Below, in pieces: positions 11,068 to 23,992 of a stretch of DNA of 23,992 nt (its first letter is position 1; every line of letters starts with the position of its first letter). The notes below the pieces were generated by a model. It saw only the letters and a program-made list of their open reading frames with translations, was not told the DNA's origin and searched no databases. The DNA lies in the IMG/VR virus record IMGVR_UViG_3300042881_000628, positions 1 through 23,992 of that record. One strand, 5' to 3'. The position numbers and the translations under genes are program-made. This stretch comes from a virus.

Positions 11068-11357
11068 TGACCCCCCGCCCCGCGCCCCCAATCCTCCGCT
11101 GGTTCCTGCGAACCTTCGGCTACGGCGGCATCACGCTGCCGCCGTGGGGCATCTTCATCCTGGCCGAGCGCATCAACGAGGCGGCGCTCGTCAGGCATGA
11201 GCAGGCGCACTGGCAACAGGCGCAGCGCATGGGTGTGGTGAAGTTTTACGTCATGTACCTCTGGTATTTGCTCAAATTCGGTTATAGTCCAAAGCACCCA
11301 ATGGAAAGAGAGGCTTTGGATGCAGAGCGTGGAGATCGACCAGATGGTCGGGCGTAG
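11064..11357 (+). CDS. Small HExxH zinc-metallopeptidase-like protein
   Basis: A 97-aa protein starting ATGATG, overlapping the tailspike TGA. It contains RHEQAHWQQAQRMG, a canonical HExxH motif (H45, E46, H49) inside a helix. Near the C-terminus is HPMEREALDAE, where an acidic residue (E81 or E83) could be the third zinc ligand of a gluzincin-like site. A Trp/Tyr-rich hydrophobic helix (FYVMYLWYLLKFGY, residues 61-74) lies between the two and may contact membrane. The protein is very small for a peptidase. It sits between the tailspike and the lysis genes, so cell-envelope action is possible. Activity is predicted from the motif only. Confidence 0.7.
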   Translation: MMTPRPAPPILRWFLRTFGYGGITLPPWGIFILAERINEAALVRHEQAHWQQAQRMGVVKFYVMYLWYLLKFGYSPKHPMEREALDAERGDRPDGRA

Positions 11358-12021
11358 ATTTGGTCAAAGAGTTGTCGTGCGACTAGCTGGTCGTGACAAC
11401 TCCAGAGGGTATACGTACATCTGCCGCTGTGACTGTGGCCGAGAGGACACGGTTCGTAAATCGGCGCTGATGATCGGCAAAAGCATTAGGTGCCACGCTT
11501 GTTCGGCAAAGTTAACGCGGAATAAACGCACGCATGAGCTGTCTGGAACCCGTCTCTACAGCATATGGAAAAGCATGGTTTACAGAAGCACTCGAAGCTC
11601 GGTCAAGAACTATGCTGGGCGAGGCATAGGCGTATGCGATGAATGGAAAGACCCCATCAAGTTTCATGAGTGGGCACTCTCTTCGGGATACTCAGACAAA
11701 TTGTCGATTGACAGAATAGATGTTGACAAGGGGTACTGTCCTGAAAACTGCCGTTGGGCGACCTTGAAGCAGCAAAGAGAGAACGTTCAGGTTCTGACGG
11801 AGACGAACAAGAGCGGGTATCGCGGCGTAAGCGCAAAGCATGGCCGTCCAGGAACATGGCTTGCGCGGCTTACTTACAATGGCAAGATCATCCATCTTGG
11901 CCACCACCGAGACCCAATCGAAGCCGCCATTGCGCACGACAGATATATCTTTCAGCATGGACTGAAAAGGCCGACTAACTTTACACTTCTGGAAGTCGAA
12001 GCACGCGAGGCTGAGCGATGA
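11320..12021 (+). CDS. HNH-like/AP2-domain putative homing endonuclease
   Basis: A 233-aa protein with GAGAGG six bases before ATG 11320, overlapping the previous gene by 38 bases. Residues 33-61 hold a zinc ribbon-like set (C35, C37, C39 and C58, C61). Residues 77-155 match a phage HNH-like domain (GTRLYSIWKSMVYR, AGRGIGVCDEW, LSIDRIDVDKGYCPENCRWAT). Residues 166-221 form an AP2 DNA-binding domain (SGYRGVSAKHGRPGTW, EAAIAHDRYIFQHG, a final NF). In the HNH segment the usual histidine (VDHID) is replaced by IDRID, as I recall for this subfamily. The gene is AT-richer than its neighbours (28 G/C of 60 at 11521-11580), consistent with a free-standing mobile endonuclease. An alternative start is Met-9. 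Confidence 0.85.
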   Translation: MQSVEIDQMVGRRFGQRVVVRLAGRDNSRGYTYICRCDCGREDTVRKSALMIGKSIRCHACSAKLTRNKRTHELSGTRLYSIWKSMVYRSTRSSVKNYAGRGIGVCDEWKDPIKFHEWALSSGYSDKLSIDRIDVDKGYCPENCRWATLKQQRENVQVLTETNKSGYRGVSAKHGRPGTWLARLTYNGKIIHLGHHRDPIEAAIAHDRYIFQHGLKRPTNFTLLEVEAREAER

Positions 12022-13322: not shown

Positions 13323-13555
13323 CTTCCAATCTCCTTGAAAAGCAACGGGCCGGCGGTGTAGACCCACCGGTACTTGGTTCGCACTGTCGGGTCGGCGCGC
13401 TTGGTGCGCGTGACCCAGCCTGCTTGCTCGGCATAGCGCAGGGATGCGCCCACGTTGTTGGGCTTCATGTCCCACTTGATGCCGACGTCGTGGGTTGTCA
13501 GTTCTTCTTCGGGGTTGCGGGCGAAGAAAACCGCCACGTGGGTGACGATGCTCAT
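13319..13555 (-). CDS. Small winged-helix-like putative DNA-binding protein
   Basis: A 78-aa protein starting at ATG 13555, which overlaps the previous stop (ATGA). The order helix (SIVTHVAVFFARNPEEELTT), helix (VGIKWDMKPNNVGASLRYAEQ), then beta hairpin (GWVTRTKRADPTVRTKYRWV) is that of a winged-helix domain, with the second helix as recognition helix and a basic wing. It may regulate transcription of phage or host genes; no partner site is identified. An upstream in-frame ATG at 13681 would overlap the neighbour heavily and is not chosen. Confidence 0.65.
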   Translation of the reverse strand: MSIVTHVAVFFARNPEEELTTHDVGIKWDMKPNNVGASLRYAEQAGWVTRTKRADPTVRTKYRWVYTAGPLLFKEIGR

Positions 13556-13944
13556 GGGTTTCGCTCCTTGCAAGCCTGCTCGATGGCGCGGGCAAAGGTA
13601 AACACCCGCGTCTTCAAGTCCGCGTTCCACGGCGTGTCGTGCCAGCACTTGGCAATCTCCTCCTCGCTCAACGAGCGCCACTCGCGGCGGGGTGGGTGGG
13701 TGAAGAGGGGAGTCCAGTTACGTCCACCAGTACCCTTATTCCAAACCAAATACTCTCGCTCGGTGTTGGAGTTTTGGTAGCGCCACGCCACCGGCTCCTG
13801 CTCCGGCTGCTCCAGCGCGGCGCGGAGGTTGATGGCGGCCTGTCTTCCGGCTTGGGATGCCACGGGCGGCGCCAGCGACTGCCACCCGTTCAGTTCTTCC
13901 AGAGCTTCAAGCGCCTGCTGGGCGGCTTCGCGTAGGGTTGTCAT
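13552..13944 (-). CDS. Hypothetical phage protein with EPVAW and LSEEEI motifs
   Basis: A 130-aa protein starting at ATG 13944, with AAGGAG upstream inside the preceding gene. The N-terminal half is helical and Ala/Glu/Leu-rich (LREAAQQALEALEELNGW, QAAINLRAALEQ). The middle has EPVAWRYQNSN and PLFTHPPRREWRSLSEEEIAKCW. This motif series recurs in small accessory proteins of many phages with no assigned role. It overlaps both neighbours by ATGA. Nothing marks an enzyme or membrane protein. Confidence 0.72.
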   Translation of the reverse strand: MTTLREAAQQALEALEELNGWQSLAPPVASQAGRQAAINLRAALEQPEQEPVAWRYQNSNTEREYLVWNKGTGGRNWTPLFTHPPRREWRSLSEEEIAKCWHDTPWNADLKTRVFTFARAIEQACKERNP

Positions 13945-14276
13945 GTCATGCTCCTTCCAATCTCAGCCGCAGCCCTGACGATGGCGCGGCGGGTGGCGGC
14001 GAGGGGGTCGCCGTTGTGCATCTGTGCGATTCGGATCGGGAGCTTGCCGTCTTCAAAGTCGTCAGGGCACGGGGCGACCCCCGCGTAAGTTGCACCAAGG
14101 TGCGGGCCGACCGTAAACCCCAACTTCACCGCCAACCGCAGCGCATCGCCGTCGTCGGTGAGGGGGTTCCAAGGAGTCCAGCCCATTTCAGCGCGGATTC
14201 GTGGCGTGTCATGAATCCATCCAAACTCAATCCCCGCCGCCTTCGCAGCGGCCTCAAGCAATTCGCGGTCTGTCAT
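13941..14276 (-). CDS. Hypothetical phage protein, DUF2591-like
   Basis: A 111-aa protein starting at ATG 14276 and overlapping both neighbours. It opens MTDRELLEAAAKAAGIEFGW and continues with WTPWNPLTDDGDALRLAVKLG and ends IVRAAAEIGRSM. The WNPLxDDGDALRLA motif is widespread in small phage proteins and resembles DUF2591 members, although identity with that family is from memory. Function unknown. Confidence 0.72.
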   Translation of the reverse strand: MTDRELLEAAAKAAGIEFGWIHDTPRIRAEMGWTPWNPLTDDGDALRLAVKLGFTVGPHLGATYAGVAPCPDDFEDGKLPIRIAQMHNGDPLAATRRAIVRAAAEIGRSMT

Positions 14277-14464
14277 TGCCCCTCCCCCGCCATCTCCAAC
14301 TGCGCTCGCAGCCGGTGGATCCGCGTCTCATGGTAGAACACCATCGCGTTGGCGTAGTCGCGCCCGGTCTGCGCTTCCAGCAGGCCGCGCCTGGCCTGGT
14401 CCAACTCGCGGGCGATCAACTCCTCGGGGCTCGGGGTGCGAAAAGGATTCGGGATGCGGATCAT
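14273..14464 (-). CDS. Small helical hypothetical protein, first gene of leftward operon
   Basis: A 63-aa protein. ATG 14464 is chosen because AGGAG lies at 14476-14472, seven bases upstream; an upstream in-frame ATG (14551) would run back through the promoter and into the RHH gene. After a Pro-rich start (RIPNPFRTPSPEEL) it is a single long charged helix (RELDQARRGLLEAQTGRDYA, YHETRIHRLRAQLEMAG). Similar helical proteins occur in many phages without known role. It is expressed from the leftward promoter at 14495-14523 with a predicted leader of about 24 bases. Confidence 0.72.
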   Translation of the reverse strand: MIRIPNPFRTPSPEELIARELDQARRGLLEAQTGRDYANAMVFYHETRIHRLRAQLEMAGEGQ

Positions 14465-14490
14465 TGGTGGACTCCTGTTGCAAAAAGTGC

Positions 14491-14518
14491 TTGCATCGTA
14501 TGAGCATTGTGATACGAT
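14491..14518 (+). promoter_or_regulatory. Rightward sigma70-type extended -10 promoter
   Basis: Plus strand: -35 TTGCAT (14491-14496), a 16-base spacer, TGA then -10 TACGAT (14513-14518), so the -10 is of the extended TGn type. The predicted start is at 14525 or 14526, at the ATG of the RHH gene, which implies a leaderless message. It overlaps the leftward promoter almost completely. Confidence 0.6.
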
Positions 14519-14519
14519 G
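14494..14519. promoter_or_regulatory. Inverted-repeat operator of the divergent control region
   Basis: CATCGTAT at 14494-14501 and its exact reverse complement ATACGATG at 14512-14519, separated by 10 bases. The flanks CTTG (14490-14493) and CAAG (14521-14524) extend the symmetry with one extra base on the right. Each half contains the -10 of one promoter. The adjacent RHH gene makes this its likely binding site (inference; the RHH family commonly autoregulates through such repeats). Confidence 0.7.
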
Positions 14520-14523
14520 TCAA
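14495..14523 (-). promoter_or_regulatory. Leftward sigma70-type promoter
   Basis: Reading the minus strand: -35 TTGACA (14523-14518), a 17-base spacer, -10 TACGAT (14500-14495). The -35 is a full consensus match and the -10 matches four of six. The predicted start is near 14488, giving a short leader with AGGAG for the gene at 14464. The promoter lies wholly across the inverted repeat, so an operator-bound repressor would block it. Confidence 0.75.
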
Positions 14524-14525
14524 GC

Positions 14526-14726
14526 ATGAACAAGCGAACCACTTTCCTCACTGTGCGTCTGCCTCAGCAGACACACCAAGCGTTCCGCGCCAAGGCCGAG
14601 AAGTACGGAGGTATTTCAGAGGTCTTGCGCGAACTGGTCGATGCGTTCATCGAGGATCGCATCACCATCACCCCACCTGCAACCCCGAAGAAGGAGTCTC
14701 TGTATGTCACTCGAAGCCAAAATTGA
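14526..14726 (+). CDS. Ribbon-helix-helix (Arc/CopG-like) transcriptional regulator
   Basis: A 66-aa protein with an RHH fold pattern: a beta strand at residues 5-11 (TTFLTVRL), helix A from PQQTHQAFRAKAEK, a GGIS turn and helix B from SEVLRELVDAFIEDRI, then a basic disordered tail. The strand would pair in a dimer and enter the DNA major groove. It lies immediately beside the inverted repeat and overlapping promoters, so autorepression and control of the leftward operon are likely. ATG 14526 is preferred over ATG 14517 because 14517 lies inside the predicted -10. There is no Shine-Dalgarno, consistent with leaderless translation. It overlaps the next gene by 23 bases. Confidence 0.82.
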   Translation: MNKRTTFLTVRLPQQTHQAFRAKAEKYGGISEVLRELVDAFIEDRITITPPATPKKESLYVTRSQN

Positions 14727-15105
14727 AAACCTGACCAACGCGATCAACGCTCTGGTCGCTGCGATGGGCGCTCGCCCCGTTGCTGCACCCGCTGCAGCCC
14801 CTGCTGTGGTCACCATCACACCCACCTCGCCAGTGCCTGCACCGGCCCCTGTCGTGCCTGCGATGCCCGCGCCACCCGTGTTCGCGCCGCCTGCACCCGT
14901 GGCACCGGCCGCCACGCTGCCCAAGGCACCGTTCACCGATCAGAAAAGTCTGATCGACTACGTGATGGCGTCCTACAAGGCGCTCGGCGTGGCCAAGGGT
15001 GCGCAGATCCAGCAGGTTCTGGTTGCGCTCGGGCACCAGAACATCAACGATGTGAAGCCTGAGAACTACGACGCCCTGTTTGCTGGCGTGGAAGCACTCA
15101 AGTGA
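14704..15105 (+). CDS. Hypothetical protein with Pro/Ala-rich linker
   Basis: A 133-aa protein with AAGGAG upstream of ATG 14704, inside the RHH gene. Residues 1-22 form a helix that could be a short coiled coil (SLEAKIENLTNAINALVAAM). Residues about 25-78 are almost entirely Pro/Ala/Val, a flexible linker. Residues about 80-133 form a compact helical domain (KSLIDYVMASYKALGVAKGA, then QIQQVLVALGHQ). This tethered two-part design suits a multimer that displays a binding domain. No family recognised. It precedes the DUF2800 nuclease, whose GTG overlaps its stop. Confidence 0.72.
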   Translation: MSLEAKIENLTNAINALVAAMGARPVAAPAAAPAVVTITPTSPVPAPAPVVPAMPAPPVFAPPAPVAPAATLPKAPFTDQKSLIDYVMASYKALGVAKGAQIQQVLVALGHQNINDVKPENYDALFAGVEALK

Positions 15106-16385
15106 GCACCGCCCACGCCAACCTGTCGCCCTCCAAGCGGCACCGCTGGGCCGCGTGCCCGGGCAGCGTGCGCGAGGAGGCCGCCTACCCCGATGAGCGC
15201 AGCGGCGCTGCGGCCATCGACGGCACCCACTCGCACACGCTGCTGGAGCACTGCGTCAAAGCCGGCGCGGCCGACCCCTCGCCAATGGTCGGCATCAAGA
15301 TGAAGGATGACGATGGTGAGTTCATCGTCGATGCCGACCGTGTAGCACGGGTCAAGGTCGCCATCGACTACATCAAGCAGCGCCACGCCGAGTCGCTGGG
15401 CATCGCTCAGTTGATCGCCGAGGAGCGGGTCAACCCGCAGTGGCTGCTGACTCGGGATGATCTGCACGGGAGCGTGGACGTCCAGATCCACGACAACCTG
15501 CACGGGGTGCTGGAGATCATCGACTACAAGGACGGGATGAACGACGCCTGGGACTCGGCAATCCTGCAGATGGAGCAGTACGCTGTGGGCGCACTGGCCG
15601 GGTTCAAGATTGCCAAGCCCAACCCGTACCCGTTCAAGACCGTGCGCATGACGGTCATCCAGCCGAAACTGGCGCTGCGTGGTGGCCAGGCGATCAGGTC
15701 TGTGGACTACCCTGTGGAGAAGGTGGTCGATGAGGTGGCTCGCACCATCGTCATCGAGGCGGCGGCCACGGACAGACCCGACGCGCCCCTGGTGCCTGGT
15801 GAGAAGCAGTGCAAGTATTGCCGCGCCAAGGGCGGCTGCGCGGCACTCAGCACCAAGGCGCTGGAGGTCGTGGACACGATGGACATCACGGCCAGCGCGG
15901 CCGAGAAGGATCCGACCAAGATGACGGACGAGCAGATCGTCCAGATCATGGAGGCGGCACCGCTGCTGCGTCAGATGCTCGAAGGCGTAGAGAAGGAAGC
16001 CCAGACCCGCATGGAGCGCGGCGCGGACATCCCGGGCCTGAAGATGGTCAACGGCAAGGGACACCGCGCCTGGAGGCTGTCTGACGAGGAGATGGCCGAG
16101 CGCCTGCGCAAGATGGGCATCCCCAAGGAGTCGGTCTACAAGACGACGCTGGTGTCCCCAGCACAGGCTGAGAAGCTGCGCTGGAAGAAGCGCGATGGCA
16201 CCGATGTGCAACTGACCGAGCGTCAACTGAAGACACTCGAACAAGAGTACGTGGTGAAGACGGTAGGCAAGCCGGTGGTCGCTCTGGCCGCTGACTCGCG
16301 CACCGCGATCACCACCAACGCTGCGCCGTTGTTCAGCGCAGTGCAATCTGAAGTGCCGGTCGAACTGCCGGCGTGGTTATCGTAA
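15102..16385 (+). CDS. DUF2800 PD-(D/E)XK nuclease, probable Fe-S type
   Basis: A 427-aa protein initiating at GTG 15102 (GTGA overlap). RecB/Cas4-like nuclease motifs are present in order: GTHSHTLLEH (H45/E49 region), GSVDVQI (D126) and VLEIIDYKDG (E138, D141, K143). An N-terminal Cys (RWAACPGS, C19) and a C-terminal C237-x2-C240-x5-C246 cluster match the four-Cys iron-sulfur arrangement of AddB/Cas4-type nucleases. DUF2800 proteins are found in phage replication modules beside DUF2815, polymerase, VRR-NUC and SNF2 genes, exactly as here. A role in DNA end processing or recombination is likely. Loading of an Fe-S cluster is inferred from cysteine spacing. Confidence 0.88.
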   Translation: MSTAHANLSPSKRHRWAACPGSVREEAAYPDERSGAAAIDGTHSHTLLEHCVKAGAADPSPMVGIKMKDDDGEFIVDADRVARVKVAIDYIKQRHAESLGIAQLIAEERVNPQWLLTRDDLHGSVDVQIHDNLHGVLEIIDYKDGMNDAWDSAILQMEQYAVGALAGFKIAKPNPYPFKTVRMTVIQPKLALRGGQAIRSVDYPVEKVVDEVARTIVIEAAATDRPDAPLVPGEKQCKYCRAKGGCAALSTKALEVVDTMDITASAAEKDPTKMTDEQIVQIMEAAPLLRQMLEGVEKEAQTRMERGADIPGLKMVNGKGHRAWRLSDEEMAERLRKMGIPKESVYKTTLVSPAQAEKLRWKKRDGTDVQLTERQLKTLEQEYVVKTVGKPVVALAADSRTAITTNAAPLFSAVQSEVPVELPAWLS

Positions 16386-16404: not shown

Positions 16405-17067
16405 ATGTCCGATCTCGTATTTCTGTCGGGTGTTCGTCTCTCGTTCCCCCACCTCGCAGAGCCCCAGAAGCGCGTCTCACCCGAGACGGGCAAGGAGCGC
16501 CTGAGCTACTCCGGGGACTTCATCATGGCCCCCGACCACCCGGGGTTCAAGCAGTTCATGGCCAAGATCAACGAGATGGCTCTGGTCAAGTGGAAGGAGC
16601 ACGCCGGCAACGTGCTGAACCTGATCAACGCTGACCGCAAGCTGCGCTGCTACGGCGACGGCAACCAAAAGGTCAACAGCAAGACCTTCCAACCCTACGA
16701 TGGCTACGCGGGCAACGTGTACGTCACCGCCGGCCGGGACAACCCGCCGCAGATCATCCAGGCCGACGGCACGCCCGTGGACCCGACCAACACGATGGCC
16801 TACCAGGCGCTGACCCGCAAGATGTACGGCGGCTGCCGTGTCAACGTGGCCATCAAGCCCTGGCTGCAGGAGAACAAGCACGGCCGCGGCATCCGGGCCG
16901 ACCTCGTGGCCGTGCAGTTCGCTGGTGACGACAAGCCGTTCGGCGAGGGCGCCGTGGATGCGTCGGGCATGTTCGGCGCTGTGGCCGGCGCTGCTGCCCC
17001 GGCACCGTCGTTCCTGCAGCCCGCTGCGGCGCAGATGCCCCTGCCTCCGTTCATGAGCGCGCAGTGA
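16405..17067 (+). CDS. DUF2815 protein, putative ssDNA-binding protein
   Basis: A 220-aa protein with AAAGG upstream of ATG 16405. The start DLVFLSGVRLSFPHLAEP, then ETGKERLSYSGDFIM, and the middle YDGYAGNVYVTAGRDNPPQI, are typical of DUF2815. Members of this family are thought to be single-stranded-DNA-binding or recombination partners, and the gene usually follows a DUF2800 nuclease, as here. The C-terminal 35 residues are Ala/Pro-rich and flexible, reminiscent of SSB tails although not acidic. A stable hairpin follows the stop codon. Confidence 0.82.
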   Translation: MSDLVFLSGVRLSFPHLAEPQKRVSPETGKERLSYSGDFIMAPDHPGFKQFMAKINEMALVKWKEHAGNVLNLINADRKLRCYGDGNQKVNSKTFQPYDGYAGNVYVTAGRDNPPQIIQADGTPVDPTNTMAYQALTRKMYGGCRVNVAIKPWLQENKHGRGIRADLVAVQFAGDDKPFGEGAVDASGMFGAVAGAAAPAPSFLQPAAAQMPLPPFMSAQ

Positions 17068-17100: not shown

Positions 17101-17116
17101 TACAAGGTAACCATTG

Positions 17117-17890
17117 ATGAAGATTCTCTCGTTTGGCGGCGGAACCGATAGCACTGCCATCTTGTGCGGTTGGGTCGAACGTGGGTTGGAACCATTCGAT
17201 CTGATTCTGTTTGCCGACACTGGTGGTGAGCGCCCTCACACCTACGAACACATCGAGCGCATGCAGGAGTGGCTGCGCCGGCACGGGATGCCGCCGATCA
17301 CCGTTGTGCGCAAATTGCGCCGCGACGGGCGTGTGCATACGTTGGAACAGAATTGCTTAGACGCGAAAATGTTGCCATCGCTGGCATATGGTTTCAAAGG
17401 TTGTTCACAGAAGTTCAAGGTCGCACCTCAAGAAAAGTACGCGAACAACCATTGGTTATCCAAGTTGACTTGGCAACGTGGTGAGCGAGTTGACAAGTAC
17501 ATTGGCTACGAGTTTTCCGAAACTCGGCGCTGGATGAAAGCACCAATCGAGGACGACAAGTATCGGTATCACTACCCGCTGGTTGAGTGGGAGTGGTCTC
17601 GTCCCGAGTGCCTTGCGGCCATTGACCGTGCTGGTCTGCCCCGCCCAGGCAAGTCATCGTGCTTCTTCTGTCCCGCGTCTACCAAACCTGAGATCGCAGC
17701 GCTGAAGCAGGAATACCCGCTGATGTTTCAACGGGCACTGGACATGGAAGCAAACGCTAATCTGACCAGCGTCAAAGGATTGGGGCGACGGTTTTCTTGG
17801 CGTGATTACGCAACGACGCTGGAAGAACCTGATGTTGTGCCTTGCATTTCATGCGCAGATGGCAGCAATAGTTGCGAGGTGTCCGCGTGA
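17117..17890 (+). CDS. PAPS-reductase-like adenine nucleotide alpha hydrolase
   Basis: A 257-aa protein. ATG 17117 is used; the codon before it is TTG. The PP-loop is SFGGGTDST (residues 5-13), followed by FADTGGERPHTYEH (the PAPS-reductase/DndC-like second motif), GCSQKFK (C96) and a CFFCPAS pair (C182, C185). The C-terminal ECGLH of assimilatory PAPS reductases is absent; the end has CISCADGSNSC instead. An AMP-forming, sulfur-handling or Fe-S role is possible, as in DndC or tRNA thiolation enzymes, but the substrate is unknown. The gene is AT-richer than its neighbours (27 G/C of 60 at 17341-17400 against 37 of 60 in the polymerase), follows a hairpin and overlaps the polymerase GTG, suggesting insertion into the replication operon. 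Confidence 0.85.
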   Translation: MKILSFGGGTDSTAILCGWVERGLEPFDLILFADTGGERPHTYEHIERMQEWLRRHGMPPITVVRKLRRDGRVHTLEQNCLDAKMLPSLAYGFKGCSQKFKVAPQEKYANNHWLSKLTWQRGERVDKYIGYEFSETRRWMKAPIEDDKYRYHYPLVEWEWSRPECLAAIDRAGLPRPGKSSCFFCPASTKPEIAALKQEYPLMFQRALDMEANANLTSVKGLGRRFSWRDYATTLEEPDVVPCISCADGSNSCEVSA

Positions 17891-19719
17891 ACGACTGGGT
17901 GTACGACTGCGAGACGTACCCCAACGTCTTCACGCTGTCTGTGATGCACGTCGAGGCACCCGTCAAGTTGATGTTCGAGATCAGCGAGTGGCGCAACGAG
18001 TCCCGGCAGATTGTCGAGTTCGTGCGCTACCTCGCTGACCGCAACGCCCGCATGGCGGGGTTCAATAACGTGGGCTTCGACTACCCCATCCTGCACACCC
18101 TGATGCAGATGGGTCAGTCTGACGCGCAGACGCTGTACCGCAAGGCGCAGGCCATCATCGAGCGCCAGGATGATGACGACCGCTGGCTGCACACGGTCAA
18201 GCCCAGCGACCGCATCGTGGAGCAGATTGACCTCTACAAGATCCACCACTTCGACAACAAGGCCCGCGCCACCAGCCTCAAGGCGCTGGAGTTCAACCTG
18301 CGCATGGACACCATCGAGGACTTGCCGTTCAAGGTCGGCACCACGCTGACCCGTGACCAGGTCGAGGTTTTGAAGAAGTACAACGAGCATGACGTCGAGG
18401 CCACGCGGCTTTTCTACCACCTGACCACGGACATGCTGCGGTTCCGCGAAGACCTCGCGATCAAGTACCCGGGCAAGGACTGGCTGAACTTCAACGACAC
18501 CAAGATCGGCAAGGAATACTTCACGCTGCGCCTGGAGCAGGCCGGCGTCTCCTGCTACGACTTCGGCCCCGATGGACGCTCGCCGCGGCAGACCCCTCGC
18601 CCGGTGATCCACCTCAAGGACGCCATCCTGCCGTGGATCACGTTCCAGCAGCCCGAGTTCATCCGGGTGCTGAACTGGCTCAAGGCGCAGACGATCACCG
18701 AGACCAAGGGCGTCTTCACGGATCTCACGGCCACGGTCGATGGGTTCACGTTCGTCTTCGGCCTGGGCGGCATCCACGGCTCGCTGGAGAACGCGGTGGT
18801 GGAGTCTGACGACGAGCATGTCATCGTGGACCTCGACGTGACCTCGTACTACCCCAACCTGGCTATCACCAACGAGTTCTATCCGCAGCACCTAGGCAAG
18901 GAGTTCGTGGCGATCTACAGCAACCTGTTCGAGCAGCGCAAGCAGTACCCCAAGAAGAGCAGCGAGAGCGCCATGCTCAAGCTGGCCCTGAACGGCGTGT
19001 ACGGCGATAGCAACAACAAGTTCAGCGTGTTCTACGACCCGCTGTTCACCATGAGCATCACGCTGAATGGGCAACTGCTGCTGTGCCTGCTGGCCGAGCG
19101 CCTGATGGAGATCGGCGGCCTGTCGCTGGTGCAGATCAACACCGATGGCGTCACGGTGCGCGTACCCCGCGCCAACATGTACTTTGTGGACAAGACGTGC
19201 GCATGGTGGATGCACATGACCGGGCTGAACCTAGAGCAGGTGCGCTACCGGCGCATGTACCTGCGCGACGTGAACAACTACATCGGGCAGTACGAGGACG
19301 GCACCGTCAAGCGCAAGGGTGCCTACGAGTGGAACATCGGCTGGCACCAGAACGCTGGTGGTCTGGTAATCCCCAAGGTGGCCGAGAAGGTGCTGGTGAA
19401 CGGCGCACCGATCCGCGAGACGGTGGAGAACTGGCCGCACCTGCACGACTTCATGCTGCGCATCAAGGTGCCGCGCTCCAGCTACCTGCAGTGGGGTGAC
19501 CACCAGGCGCAGAACACCACCCGGTACTACGTGGCCAAGGGCGGCAAGCCGTTGACCAAGTGGATGCCGCCGCTCAAGGGTAAGACCGACTGGCGCAAGT
19601 TCGCCGTGGAGAGTGGGTGGAACGTGCAGGTGTGCAACGACATCAAGGACGTTGGCCCTGAGATCGACTTCGACTACTACGTCAACGAGATCGAGAAACT
19701 GACATTGGGGTTGGCATGA
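17887..19719 (+). CDS. Family B DNA polymerase with 3'-5' exonuclease
   Basis: A 610-aa protein; GTG 17887 overlaps the previous TGA (GTGA), though an in-frame TTG at 17872 is possible. Exonuclease motifs: DCE (D7, E9), FNNVGFDYP (N60/N61, D65) and YNEHD (Y165, D169). Polymerase motifs: A, DVTSYYPNLAI (D317); B, KLALNGVYGD (K365, N369, Y372, G373); C, QINTDGV with D420 kept and the usual first Asp of DTD replaced by Asn-418; then a KRKGAY element (K477, Y480). All catalytic Asp expected for activity appear to remain. It is shorter than the 800-900 aa of T4-type enzymes. It should replicate the phage genome with the adjacent primase-helicase. In comparable DUF2800/DUF2815 modules I recall family A enzymes more often. 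Confidence 0.92.
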   Translation: MNDWVYDCETYPNVFTLSVMHVEAPVKLMFEISEWRNESRQIVEFVRYLADRNARMAGFNNVGFDYPILHTLMQMGQSDAQTLYRKAQAIIERQDDDDRWLHTVKPSDRIVEQIDLYKIHHFDNKARATSLKALEFNLRMDTIEDLPFKVGTTLTRDQVEVLKKYNEHDVEATRLFYHLTTDMLRFREDLAIKYPGKDWLNFNDTKIGKEYFTLRLEQAGVSCYDFGPDGRSPRQTPRPVIHLKDAILPWITFQQPEFIRVLNWLKAQTITETKGVFTDLTATVDGFTFVFGLGGIHGSLENAVVESDDEHVIVDLDVTSYYPNLAITNEFYPQHLGKEFVAIYSNLFEQRKQYPKKSSESAMLKLALNGVYGDSNNKFSVFYDPLFTMSITLNGQLLLCLLAERLMEIGGLSLVQINTDGVTVRVPRANMYFVDKTCAWWMHMTGLNLEQVRYRRMYLRDVNNYIGQYEDGTVKRKGAYEWNIGWHQNAGGLVIPKVAEKVLVNGAPIRETVENWPHLHDFMLRIKVPRSSYLQWGDHQAQNTTRYYVAKGGKPLTKWMPPLKGKTDWRKFAVESGWNVQVCNDIKDVGPEIDFDYYVNEIEKLTLGLA

Positions 19720-19865: not shown

Positions 19866-20142
19866 AAAGAACATCGAAGCGAAGGTCTGCGGCTACGCCC
19901 GTGAGCGCGGGCTGCTGGCCTACAAGTTCACCTCACCAGCGCACGCCGCGGTGCCTGACCGGCTGTTCGTGCTGCCCAACGGGCGCATGTTCTTCTGCGA
20001 GTTCAAGCGCCAAGGCCAGAAGCCCACGCCGGCCCAAGAGCGCGAGCATCACCGACTGCGCCAGCACAAGGTCAGCGTGTTCGTCATCGACAACGTGGAC
20101 GACGGGCTGCGGATGGTGGACGAGATGCTCGCATCATGCTGA
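19858..20142 (+). CDS. VRR-NUC domain nuclease
   Basis: A 94-aa single-domain protein. ATG 19858 has GGAG upstream (CAGGAGAAACG); a further in-frame ATG at 19840 is not needed. VRR-NUC signatures: N-terminal E7 in LEKNIEAKV, AYKFTSPAHAAVPDRLFV with P33-D34-R35, FCEFKRQGQKPTPAQ with E48, K50 and Q60. These make up the PD-(D/E)XK metal site. Stand-alone phage VRR-NUC proteins are structure-specific nucleases that act on branched DNA and commonly lie next to a SNF2 helicase gene, which here overlaps by seven bases. Confidence 0.92.
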   Translation: MLEKNIEAKVCGYARERGLLAYKFTSPAHAAVPDRLFVLPNGRMFFCEFKRQGQKPTPAQEREHHRLRQHKVSVFVIDNVDDGLRMVDEMLASC

Positions 20143-21542
20143 CCCCCAACCTCCTCCACGACTACCAGAAGAAGGCGGTCAACTTCCAGTCCACCCACGT
20201 CAACTCGATGATGTGGCTGGACATGGGGCTGGGCAAGACCATCATCACGCTCACCACCATCGCGCACCTCATCAACACCCGGTTCCTGCGGGGCGTGATC
20301 ATCATCGCCCCCATCCGCGTGATCCGTCTGGTGTGGCGCCAGGAGGCCGCGAAGTGGGAGCACACCAAGCACCTGCGGTTCAGCATGGTCACCGGCACCC
20401 GGGACCAGCGCACCCGGGCGCTGATGCGCGAGGCTGACGTGTACCTGATGAACTACGACAACCTCAAGTGGCTCGGTGAGACGCTGCACACCTACTACGT
20501 CAGCAAGGACAAGCCGCTGCCGTTCAACGGTGTGGTGTGGGACGAGATCAGCAAGATGAAGAACAGCGCCACGGACCGCGTGCGAGCGGTCAAGCGCATC
20601 TTGGACAAGTTCGACTGGACCACCGGCCTGACCGGCACCCCGGCGTCCAACGGCTACAAAGACCTCCACGGGCAGTACCTGGTGGTGGACAAGGGGCAGC
20701 GCCTGGGCACCAGCAAGACCGCGTTCAAGACCCGGTTCTACAAGAAGGCCGGCCCCTACAAGGAAGTGCCCTACGACGACACCGAGACGGTCATCAAGAC
20801 CCTCATTGGCGACATCACGCTGGAGATGAGCGCCGAGGACTACAACCCGCTGCCCGACCTCATCGTCAACAACATCGAGGTGGAGATGCCACCCGAGTTG
20901 CGTGCGAAGTACGAGCAGATGGAGCGTGAGTTCTTCACCGTGCTTGACAGCGGCAAGGAGATCGAGGTGTTCAACTCGGCCGCGCTGACCAACAAGTGCC
21001 TGCAGTTCAGCAACGGCGCGGTGTACCCTATCGCCGGCATGCCGCTGTGGGAGCCCGTGCATCAGTTGAAACTTGAAGCCCTTGACGAGATACTGGACGA
21101 GGCGCAGGGCTCACCCGTGCTGTGCGCCTATGCCTACCGATCAGATGCCGAGCGGATCATGGATCGGTTCAAGGCGCTGCGGCCGATCAACCTGACCGAG
21201 TGCAAGACCGAGCGCGAACTGAACAACGCAATGGAGCGGTGGAAGAGCGGTGACTGCCCGCTGATGATTGGTCATCCGGCCAGCATGGGCCACGGCATCG
21301 ACGGGCTGCAGCACAAGGGCCGCACGTTGGTGTGGTTCGGGCTGAACTGGAGCCTTGACCTGTACGACCAGTTCAACGCCCGGGTGCGGCGGCAGGGTCA
21401 GGGTGCTCCGGTGGTGTGCCACCGCATCCTGTGCCAGGACACCCTAGACCAGGCGCAGGCTCTGGCACTGGACGAGAAGGCGACTACGCAGGCCGGTCTG
21501 CGCAGCGCGGTGAAGGAATACCGGAAGCAAAAGGGTGTTTGA
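20136..21542 (+). CDS. SNF2/DEAD-type superfamily 2 helicase
   Basis: A 468-aa protein with a compact SF2 core. LHDYQKKAV (residues 7-15), Walker A DMGLGKT (29-35), IIIAPIRVI (motif Ia), DEIS (D136, E137; motif II), GLTGTPAS (164-171; motif III), GHGIDGLQ (motif V) and QFNARVRRQGQ (412-422; motif VI with arginine finger R416/R419). It should be a DNA-dependent ATPase that translocates on or remodels DNA during replication or recombination, acting with the VRR-NUC nuclease and the primase. It starts inside the end of the VRR-NUC gene, so translation is coupled. No accessory domains are seen. Confidence 0.92.
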   Translation: MLTPNLLHDYQKKAVNFQSTHVNSMMWLDMGLGKTIITLTTIAHLINTRFLRGVIIIAPIRVIRLVWRQEAAKWEHTKHLRFSMVTGTRDQRTRALMREADVYLMNYDNLKWLGETLHTYYVSKDKPLPFNGVVWDEISKMKNSATDRVRAVKRILDKFDWTTGLTGTPASNGYKDLHGQYLVVDKGQRLGTSKTAFKTRFYKKAGPYKEVPYDDTETVIKTLIGDITLEMSAEDYNPLPDLIVNNIEVEMPPELRAKYEQMEREFFTVLDSGKEIEVFNSAALTNKCLQFSNGAVYPIAGMPLWEPVHQLKLEALDEILDEAQGSPVLCAYAYRSDAERIMDRFKALRPINLTECKTERELNNAMERWKSGDCPLMIGHPASMGHGIDGLQHKGRTLVWFGLNWSLDLYDQFNARVRRQGQGAPVVCHRILCQDTLDQAQALALDEKATTQAGLRSAVKEYRKQKGV

Positions 21543-21549
21543 CATGACC

Positions 21550-21585
21550 AAAAAAGAACCCCGCCAAGCGTGAACTCGGCGGGGT
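21550..21585 (-). terminator. Leftward intrinsic terminator
   Basis: ACCCCGCC (21558-21565) and GGCGGGGT (21578-21585) form an 8-bp perfect stem with a 12-base loop. Read on the minus strand the stem is followed by TCTTTTTT (complement of the A-run at 21550-21555), a standard intrinsic terminator. On the plus strand no T-run follows, so rightward termination would be weak. It lies just after the helicase stop. Confidence 0.72.
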
Positions 21586-21598
21586 GTGCAACATCGAC

Positions 21599-21638
21599 AA
21601 AGGAGGAGACGCCGGTTAACCGGCGCCCGTATGGTATG
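21599..21638 (+). promoter_or_regulatory. Primase ribosome-binding site with interposed hairpin and 2-codon ORF
   Basis: AAAGGAGG at 21599-21606 is an excellent Shine-Dalgarno but lies 29 bases before the primase ATG (21636). In between is the 16-bp perfect palindrome CGCCGGTTAACCGGCG (21610-21625, 6-bp stem with TTAA loop), then ATG GTA TGA at 21631-21639. If the hairpin forms, the Shine-Dalgarno is about 8 bases from ATG 21631 and 13 from ATG 21636. The TGA of the minicistron overlaps the primase ATG. Confidence 0.6.
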
Positions 21639-23992
21639 ACATCATCGAGCATCGTGCAACAACATCCCGCGTCTGTTGACGCCTACATCAGACACGGGTG
21701 GTCGCTTGTGCCCATCCCACCGGGCACCAAGGGGCCGCGCACCGTGGGGTGGAACCGGCGCGAGTCGGCCCTGCGCTCTCAGGCCGATCTGCCCCCCGCG
21801 CACGGCATCGGCCTGGCCCATGCCTACAGCGGCACGATGGCCCTGGACATCGACGACTGGTTCACTGCCACCACGATGCTCTCGTTCATGGGCGTTGACC
21901 TGGCTGCGCTCTACGATGCGCCCGATGCGGTGATCGTGGACAGTGGACGGCAGGGCCACGGGAAGCTGCTGTACGCCATGCCCTTCGGCCTAGCGCTGCC
22001 GAGCAAGAAACTCATGGTGGACGTGGACGGCAAGGTGTCCAACTACCTCGACTTCCGATGCGCCACGGCCGACGGCCTGACGATGCAGGACGTACTGCCG
22101 CCGAGCATCCACCCCGACACGCAGCAGCCCTACCGCTGGGCAGGGCGCGGGCACTGGATGCGCATGCCGCTCATCCCGCCTGCACTACTCGACTTGTGGC
22201 AGACGCTGCTGAACGAGCCAGCGCCCGCGCCATCGCAGCCCACTGACACGGTGGAGGTGAACTGGTCCGAGATCCGCAGCGCACTGGACTCGATCAGTCC
22301 CGATGTCAGCCGCGACGAGTGGATCACCTGCGGCATGGCGCTGCACTGGGCAGGCACGCAGACCAATGACCTCGATGGCGCGTTCACCACCTGGCAGCAG
22401 TGGAGCGCCAAGAGCGCCGACAAGTACCCGGGTGATCGTGCCATCGCGGCGCAGTGGCGCTCGTTCAAGAGCGACAAGGCCACGGCGGTCAAGCTCGGCA
22501 GCCTGTTCCACCTGGCCCGACAGTCGGGCTGGGTGAAGCCCCCGCTGGACGCATCGGCCCTGTTCAAGCCCGCCGAGGCGCTGACCCAGCCGCAGGTGCT
22601 CATTGAGTCCAGCCGGGTGCCAGCGCCCGTGATGCGCGTGGAGTGGTGGCCGCAGGCCCTGGCCGACCGGGCCACCGAGGTCAGCGAGCACATTGGGTGC
22701 GACCCCATCGTGCCACTGTTCTCGGGCCTGGCGGCGGTGGCCGGTGCCATCGATGCCCGCTCCCGGCTGCGGCTGATGGAGGGCTACGAGGTGCCGCCGA
22801 TCATCTGGCTGATGACCATCGGCTCGCCCGCAGACAAGAAGACCCCGGGCGCGAGTCCGATGGTCGAGGTGTTGCACCAGATCGAGGCCGAGGATTACCC
22901 GGCCTTCAAGAAGCGCATGCTGGACTGGGAGGCGCTGGAGGCCCGGCATGCGGTGAGCAAGAAGGAGTTCCTCGATGCCGCCTCCAGCCTTGATGTGACG
23001 GGGAACACGGCGCTGCCCACGGTGTCAGACCTGCCGCCCCAGCCCCAGCCGCTGCGCCTAAAGGTCTCCGACATCACCAGCCAGAAGCTGGTGAGGTATG
23101 CGGCAGAGCGGCCGCGTGGCCTGCTGTGCTACCTGGACGAGATGGCCGCCTGGACCAAGAAGATGAGCGACCGCCAGAGCGGCGAGGATCGCTCGACGTG
23201 GGTGCAGGCCTACGAGGCGAGGCGGTACGAGTATGACCGGGTAGGCGGCGGTGCGATCCTTGCCGAGTGCTTCGCGGTGAGCGTCTACGGCAACATCCAG
23301 CCGCTGGTCTACCGGGCCACGGTCGAGGCGCTGGCTACCGACGGCCTGCTGCAGCGGTTCATCCCCGGCATCCTGGACACGCGCAAGACCCGGCGCGGTG
23401 AGCCTGGCCCGCCGGCGCACTCGGCTGGGTGGGACCAGTTGGTGCGCCTGGTGTACTCACTGCCGGCACAGACCTACACGCTGGCCCCGGATGCCTTCAC
23501 GCTGTTTCGAGAGTTCCAACTGTGGTTCGAGCAGAGCAAACGCGACGAGGTGGTGCTGGAGGCGGATCCCGCGTTCCTGACGGCCTACGGGAAGCTGGAG
23601 GGCACTGCGGCGCGCCTCGCGCTGCTGTTCCATGTGATCGAGTGCCCCTTCAGTAGCGTGGTCAGCCGTTCGACCCTTGAGCGGGCCATCAGCATGGTGC
23701 GCGGGTACGTGATCCCGGCGCTGCGGTACACGCTGGCCGAGTTCACCGGGGACTCGTTCGATATCTGGGTGCAGGGCTGGCTGCTGTACCACTGCGCGGG
23801 CAAGACCACGGTGACCCTCTCCGAGGTCAAGCGAGGCGCACGGCGGCGCATGGAGAAGGTCCAGAGCACCATCCTACAGGACCGCATGGTCATCGGTGCC
23901 ATGCAGACCCTAGAGGAGGCCGGCTGGGTTGTGCGGCTCGATGACGGCTCGCGTGAGCACCTGCATCAGGCCGACTGGGCGATCAACCCGGC
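21636..23992 (+). CDS. Prim-Pol/PriCT/DUF3987 primase-helicase, 3' end missing
   Basis: An open frame of 785 codons that runs off the window. Residues about 10-180 are an archaeo-eukaryotic-type Prim-Pol domain: ALDIDDW (D71, D73), SGRQGHGKLLY (H108) and NYLDFR (D139), followed by VLPPSIHPDT..YRW. Residues about 208-285 match PriCT-2 (VNWSEIRSALDSISPDVSRD, EWITCGMALHWAG). From about residue 330 it is DUF3987, a helicase-like ATPase: a Walker A-type GSPADKKTP (from G396), a Walker B LLCYLDEMAAW (D501, E502) and VYGNIQP. The enzyme should lay primers and unwind DNA at phage forks. The Walker A loop has Lys in place of the usual Gly before KT. Translation start ATG 21636 is discussed with its unusual leader. 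Confidence 0.9.
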   Translation, partial: MTSSSIVQQHPASVDAYIRHGWSLVPIPPGTKGPRTVGWNRRESALRSQADLPPAHGIGLAHAYSGTMALDIDDWFTATTMLSFMGVDLAALYDAPDAVIVDSGRQGHGKLLYAMPFGLALPSKKLMVDVDGKVSNYLDFRCATADGLTMQDVLPPSIHPDTQQPYRWAGRGHWMRMPLIPPALLDLWQTLLNEPAPAPSQPTDTVEVNWSEIRSALDSISPDVSRDEWITCGMALHWAGTQTNDLDGAFTTWQQWSAKSADKYPGDRAIAAQWRSFKSDKATAVKLGSLFHLARQSGWVKPPLDASALFKPAEALTQPQVLIESSRVPAPVMRVEWWPQALADRATEVSEHIGCDPIVPLFSGLAAVAGAIDARSRLRLMEGYEVPPIIWLMTIGSPADKKTPGASPMVEVLHQIEAEDYPAFKKRMLDWEALEARHAVSKKEFLDAASSLDVTGNTALPTVSDLPPQPQPLRLKVSDITSQKLVRYAAERPRGLLCYLDEMAAWTKKMSDRQSGEDRSTWVQAYEARRYEYDRVGGGAILAECFAVSVYGNIQPLVYRATVEALATDGLLQRFIPGILDTRKTRRGEPGPPAHSAGWDQLVRLVYSLPAQTYTLAPDAFTLFREFQLWFEQSKRDEVVLEADPAFLTAYGKLEGTAARLALLFHVIECPFSSVVSRSTLERAISMVRGYVIPALRYTLAEFTGDSFDIWVQGWLLYHCAGKTTVTLSEVKRGARRRMEKVQSTILQDRMVIGAMQTLEEAGWVVRLDDGSREHLHQADWAINP

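Follow-up and report, generated by a model that had tools for sequence, protein, structure and literature searches.

Overlapping divergent promoters with near-fixed geometry beside a probable ribbon-helix-helix gene: a candidate control point of replication genes in a phage group

Two predicted sigma70-type promoters of opposite direction are packed within 33 bases (positions 14491-14523) of the window, the whole 23,992-nt stretch of viral DNA that was analysed, and the same overlapping arrangement is kept with nearly fixed geometry in a group of related phages. These phages have genomes of roughly 38 kb and are probably virulent. The architecture of the pair, its conservation, the gene order around it and the spacing of the neighbouring ATG can be read from the sequences themselves. 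With moderate confidence, the pair is best explained as a conserved control point between two replication units, at which a small ribbon-helix-helix (RHH) protein represses both promoters.

The rightward promoter (14491-14518, plus strand) consists of a -35 element TTGCAT at 14491-14496, a spacer of 16 and a -10 element TACGAT at 14513-14518, and the leftward promoter (14495-14523, minus strand) of TTGACA at 14523-14518, a spacer of 17 and TACGAT at 14500-14495. Transcripts are predicted to start at 14525-14526 on the right and at an A at about 14488 on the left. The two -10 hexamers are thus 12 bp apart and the predicted starts about 37-38 bp apart, and the -35 region of each promoter overlaps or adjoins the -10 of the other, an overlap that would preclude simultaneous occupancy. 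The plus-strand -35 is weak (3/6 consensus bases) and a stock promoter scan lists the minus-strand promoter only (10/12), so that the rightward promoter depends on its extended -10, with the TG at 14510-14511; the full TGTG is absent further up, where the sequence reads TTGTG. No other interleaved opposite pair is found in the 24-kb window under criteria that include an overlap of at least 24 bp, and the score of the site is unmatched in 60 random 24-kb sequences of the same dinucleotide statistics, a comparison to be taken as a rough guide only because the scan criteria were fixed after the site was known. Conservation in relatives is stronger evidence for the pair than this chance calculation. 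The direct reading bears out a preliminary description of this DNA, which had recognized the two interleaved promoters (TTGCAT-16-TACGAT on the plus strand and TTGACA-17-TACGAT on the minus strand) and had placed each -10 within one half of the same repeat.

Relatives were collected with two independent seeds; the RHH protein as query retrieved 50 loci, and the DUF2800 exonuclease retrieved 52, most of the close ones carrying the same RHH gene. The second seed also recovers the same promoter. After removal of duplicates and addition of the phage record DSL-LC05 (OR003940), 61 loci were compared. This phage is the single relevant relative found by DNA similarity in phage records, and tblastn with two RHH proteins returned the same one. 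The gap between the two halves of the site is 2 nt in 49 of the 61 loci, 1 nt in 7 and 3 nt in 5, and the distance from -10 to -10 is 12 bp, with a minority at 11 or 13. Within a -10 element, A(-11) and T(-7) are the bases that sigma70 reads in flipped-out form. The main offset test was anchored on the plus-strand promoter alone, and its 44 diverged representatives were chosen regardless of the left half. A minus-strand -10 with both A(-11) and T(-7) lies at one and the same offset in 47/61 loci and 32/44 representatives, as against 24/61 and 16/44 for the next-best offset. When 1 nt on either side of the main offset is allowed, the counts rise to 59/61 and 42/44, and the other three-offset windows, used as the chance comparison, average 11.0 of 44 and peak at 28. 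The two failing loci (L009 and L058), in which the plus-strand anchor landed on another site, score poorly, with the left -10 kept and the right -10 shifted. An offset count of 29/29 was obtained as well, from loci pre-selected on a two-sided score, and is partly circular. Among 30 representatives of the 2-nt class, likewise pre-selected on the two-sided score, both -10s carry the A and the T in 30/30 and the plus-strand extended TG is present in 29/30, and the -10s hold 1.2-1.3 bits of information per base, compared with 0.16-0.24 for the distant flanks. The -35-like arm of some relatives is spaced at 19-20 bp, outside the usual range. Selection on both promoters is the best reading of the offset test, and both are probably real. 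The repeat search in related phages that the preliminary description had put forward yields a near-fixed geometry across the phage group (42/44 diverged loci). Its view that polymerase could occupy only one promoter at a time is supported in the sense of overlapping and probably mutually exclusive promoters. The adjoining RHH gene of that description is recovered too, as a small probable RHH gene starting at 14526 that is the same gene in loci from both seeds.

This gene (14526-14726, plus strand) is the first of the rightward unit and encodes a 66-aa protein, a small probable RHH (Arc-like) regulator. It matches PHROG 6506, 'Arc-like repressor', with an E-value of 0.004 and has no match to Pfam RHH_1; searches of Pfam, NCBIfam, PDB sequences and Foldseek for RHH identity gave weak or no matches, and the profile match to ParG has an E-value of only 0.43. 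In the AlphaFold2 model (mean pLDDT 77.7, pTM 0.53), helices at residues 14-25 and 30-42 follow a putative strand segment, whose T-V-R motif presumably resembles that of omega. Structural alignment of the model gives a Z score of 3.9 over 44 residues for the Arc variant 1myl and of 5.5, with an rmsd of 6.2, for DinJ. These grounds are thin but consistent, and they make an RHH regulator probable. Small RHH proteins encoded beside their own promoter usually autoregulate, as is the case for Arc, Mnt, CopG, omega and ParG, and repression of the promoter pair by the protein described here is plausible. The 3′-end of the gene shows features of its own; the DNA for its conserved C-terminal tail KESLYVTR, when read in a different frame, supplies the Shine-Dalgarno sequence (AAGGAG/AAGGAA) and the ATG of the next gene (14691-14727 in the window), and many diverged loci preserve the string TATGTCACTCGA in this part.

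Both promoters are enclosed by an inverted repeat that is imperfect, GCTTG-CATCGTAT / ATACGATG-T-CAAGC (14489-14525). Its core arms, CATCGTAT at 14494-14501 and ATACGATG at 14512-14519, form a perfect 8-bp pair, and the extended arms (14489-14501 and 14512-14525) include one bulged base; perfect 8-bp arm pairs are not rare, and several more lie within the same 1.2 kb. The repeat is a possible operator of the RHH protein. If the two halves had co-evolved under a regulator that reads them, they should match within a locus more than between loci. Among the 30 representatives no such covariation is seen (7.00 of 12 identities for matched halves versus 7.36 for mismatched ones, with 3.12 for shuffled letters), and the symmetry therefore neither demonstrates an RHH operator nor requires one. 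Most of it would be accounted for by the facing pair of -10s. A conserved C at position 3 of the -10s was considered as a mark of an operator, and this candidate is weakened by the occurrence of TGTGnTACnnT also at non-palindromic intergenic sites in relatives; the unusual C may reflect a preference shared by promoters more generally. The palindromic site itself usually occurs once per genome in relatives, beside the RHH gene. Four loci (L111, L114, L118 and L120) have other intergenic sites with a palindrome like GACCCAGTGGGTC or variants of it, which overlaps a TTGACC -35 in two cases and is possibly the operator of a second regulator.

To the right, the RHH gene is followed by a gene at 14704-15105, which begins within the 3′-end of the RHH gene, where both its Shine-Dalgarno sequence AAGGAG (14691-14696) and its ATG are located, and then by genes for a DUF2800/RecB-like exonuclease (15102-16385), an ssDNA-binding protein (SSB, 16405-17067), a DNA polymerase (17872-19719), an SNF2-type helicase (20136-21542) and a primase of the Prim-Pol/PriCT-2/DUF3987 kind (21570-23990), all on the plus strand, the primase gene being the last of the rightward replication genes in the window. 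A PAPS-reductase-like gene (17114-17890) is located between the SSB and DNA polymerase genes; its Pfam match (E 0.0039) is below the curated cut-off. To the left, on the minus strand, the first gene (14273-14464) encodes 64 aa that weakly match PHROG 25105, a family of unknown function, starts with an ATG at 14464 behind the Shine-Dalgarno sequence AGGAG (14476-14472) and has a predicted leader of about 24 nt. Two further small genes follow at 13941-14276 (PHROG 5086, unknown function) and 13552-13944. One relative (L109) carries a homolog of the first leftward gene (50% identity) at a different place, about 11217-11460, where it is preceded by a TGTGATACACT promoter of its own; the gene can therefore fall under different promoters.

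In the relatives, a primase homolog is found in the left flank of 54/61 loci, always on the minus strand (54/54) and in some cases behind at least one small gene, and most of the group therefore has the promoter pair positioned between two replication units. By the gene order, the primase has moved to 21570-23990 on the plus strand in the lineage of the window, and accessory genes alone on the left would be a trait of this lineage. Several left genes in relatives have short Shine-Dalgarno-bearing leaders just past the predicted start. The primase leaders of the leadered group (L016, L020, L021, L026, L036, L039 and others) have a strong GC-rich hairpin after an A-rich sequence, and the ones inspected by eye also carry a short ORF, some 11-14 codons long, that ends in a stop overlapping the ATG of the primase gene (ATGA); translational coupling between this short ORF and the primase is possible.

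On the right side of the pair, the ATG of the RHH gene (14526) lies 7 nt after the -10 and coincides with the predicted transcript start at 14525-14526, so that a leaderless mRNA is predicted. In a tree of 57 RHH proteins, which is based on few alignment columns, the proteins whose ATG lies no more than 10 nt from the -10 number 21 and make up one side of a branch (support 98/94), the window phage included, and the remaining 36 have longer distances. The distance in this clade is 7 nt in 17 loci, 8 nt in two and 9 nt in two, and the two 9-nt loci have a poorly matched -10. Every one of the 21 loci of the clade preserves the predicted leftward +1 A, 7 nt past the leftward -10. From these spacings, the RHH mRNA is probably leaderless in one clade, which would represent a single evolutionary step toward a leaderless regulator mRNA and can be compared with the leadered relatives.

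According to the favored explanation, one RNA polymerase at a time would load onto the overlapping pair, either leftward or rightward. Leftward loading would serve the primase gene in most relatives and the small genes in the window, and rightward loading would serve the genes for the RHH protein, exonuclease, SSB, DNA polymerase and helicase. The RHH protein, as the first rightward product, would accumulate and most likely repress both promoters, and this repression would cap expression of the replication genes. Translation would differ by side, with a probably leaderless RHH mRNA on the right versus an approximately 24-nt leader with a good Shine-Dalgarno sequence on the left. Promoter activity, mutual exclusion, RHH binding and autorepression are what we infer here from the arrangement. 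A further proposal, which we advance only tentatively, is that the one-polymerase pair balances the primase unit against the polymerase/exonuclease unit throughout the group, and that the leaderless RHH mRNA of the one clade makes the production of the regulator in an infected cell depend on the state of the translation machinery.

It could be supposed that only the rightward promoter with its extended -10 is real and that the left half is one half of a palindromic RHH operator, which merely resembles a -10. Such a reading would fit the better preservation of the extended TG on the right (43/44) than on the left (18/44, main register), and also the C at position 3 of the -10, which is not a base favored by sigma70 and which the two halves nevertheless retain in 29/30 and 26/30. 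The best-kept bases of the left half, however, include the polymerase-critical A(-11) and T(-7), and the lack of covariation between the halves is not what paired operator halves would lead one to expect. The invariably divergent left-flank primase homologs (54/54), the short Shine-Dalgarno-bearing leaders just past the predicted start of several left genes, and the leftward +1 A in 21/21 loci of the leaderless clade all speak for a functional leftward promoter as well, and we regard a rightward promoter alone as unlikely. Only slightly more weight can be given to the idea, still doubtful, that both interleaved promoters are real and the RHH protein acts elsewhere, control being exerted by polymerase competition and other factors. 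This idea agrees with the same lack of covariation, with the presence of the -10 motif at other, non-palindromic sites and with the weak RHH homology of the protein. Against it, loci from both seeds have the RHH gene directly next on the rightward side, the palindromic site is single in most relatives and stands beside that gene, and small RHH proteins so placed usually regulate their own promoter.

The preliminary description had further read the pair as switching between an accessory operon on the left and a replication operon on the right. This part is not supported, since a primase homolog is on the left arm, on the minus strand, in 54 of the 61 loci and most relatives have replication genes on both arms. 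A bistable switch, either of this accessory/replication type or of the lysis-lysogeny type, would agree with the one-at-a-time occupancy implied by the geometry, and plasmid pLS20 offers a case in which such overlapping promoters take part in a switch (PMC4207663). No integrase (PF00589) was matched in 19 records, some of which may be incomplete, the window itself being a 24-kb fragment; HTH_3 exceeded the cut-off in only 2 of the 19, and BACPHLIP predicts the relative DSL-LC05 to be virulent (PMC10611076). These findings make a lysis-lysogeny switch unlikely. Moreover, bidirectional promoters of E. coli show little competition at basal activity (PMC12825309), so that polymerase exclusion need not matter. 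Taken with the two-armed replication genes, these points leave a bistable switch of any kind very improbable, and the arrangement looks more like a balanced control of replication genes than like an on/off lifestyle switch.

The arrangement points to a regulator that likely acts early on the replication genes of a little-studied and mostly uncultured phage group. With about 40 diverged natural versions of one overlapping pair, it can be asked whether steric exclusion itself is selected.

Promoters that overlap and diverge next to a regulator gene are already known as a design. Those of Tn10 tetR/tetA have the regulator gene adjacent, according to the passage of PMC11686294 that cites Bertrand et al. 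(1983), and for Pc/Pr of plasmid pLS20 polymerase is described as able to occupy one of the two (PMC4207663). The present pair resembles both in its predicted opposite promoters on the same DNA and in a regulator gene at one of them, and differs from both in the probable RHH nature of the protein, in the near-fixed interleaved geometry across a phage group, in the replication genes on two sides in most relatives and in the predicted leaderless regulator mRNA of one clade. In the immI region of P22, the Arc and Mnt repressors control ant (PMC2629481). Small Arc-like phage repressors at a compact promoter region are common to the two cases, a likeness founded on the Arc-like protein and on background knowledge of P22, whereas P22 is temperate and the gene controlled there is an antirepressor, and the phages described here are probably virulent and have replication genes to the left and right of the pair. 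Bidirectional promoters likewise load polymerase either way from near-symmetrical DNA (PMC10268837; PMC12825309), but those described by Warman and Grainger share a -10 and have starts 7-25 bp apart, mostly 18 (PMC10268837), unlike the separate -10s at 12 bp and the predicted starts at 37-38 bp of the present pair, which does not belong to that class. The omega/ParB repressor of pSM19035, an RHH protein, binds WATCACW heptads in arrays of 7-10 contiguous copies (PMC9499535). The core TATCACA/TGTGATA of some relatives fits this heptad, with no more than two inverted half-sites, separated by 2 nt, in place of an array, and the resemblance is only a lead because the left half is degenerate in the window (TATGAGC) and in several relatives. 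Beside these systems, the interest of the promoter pair lies in its conserved geometry together with the leaderless clade, the latter being new here.
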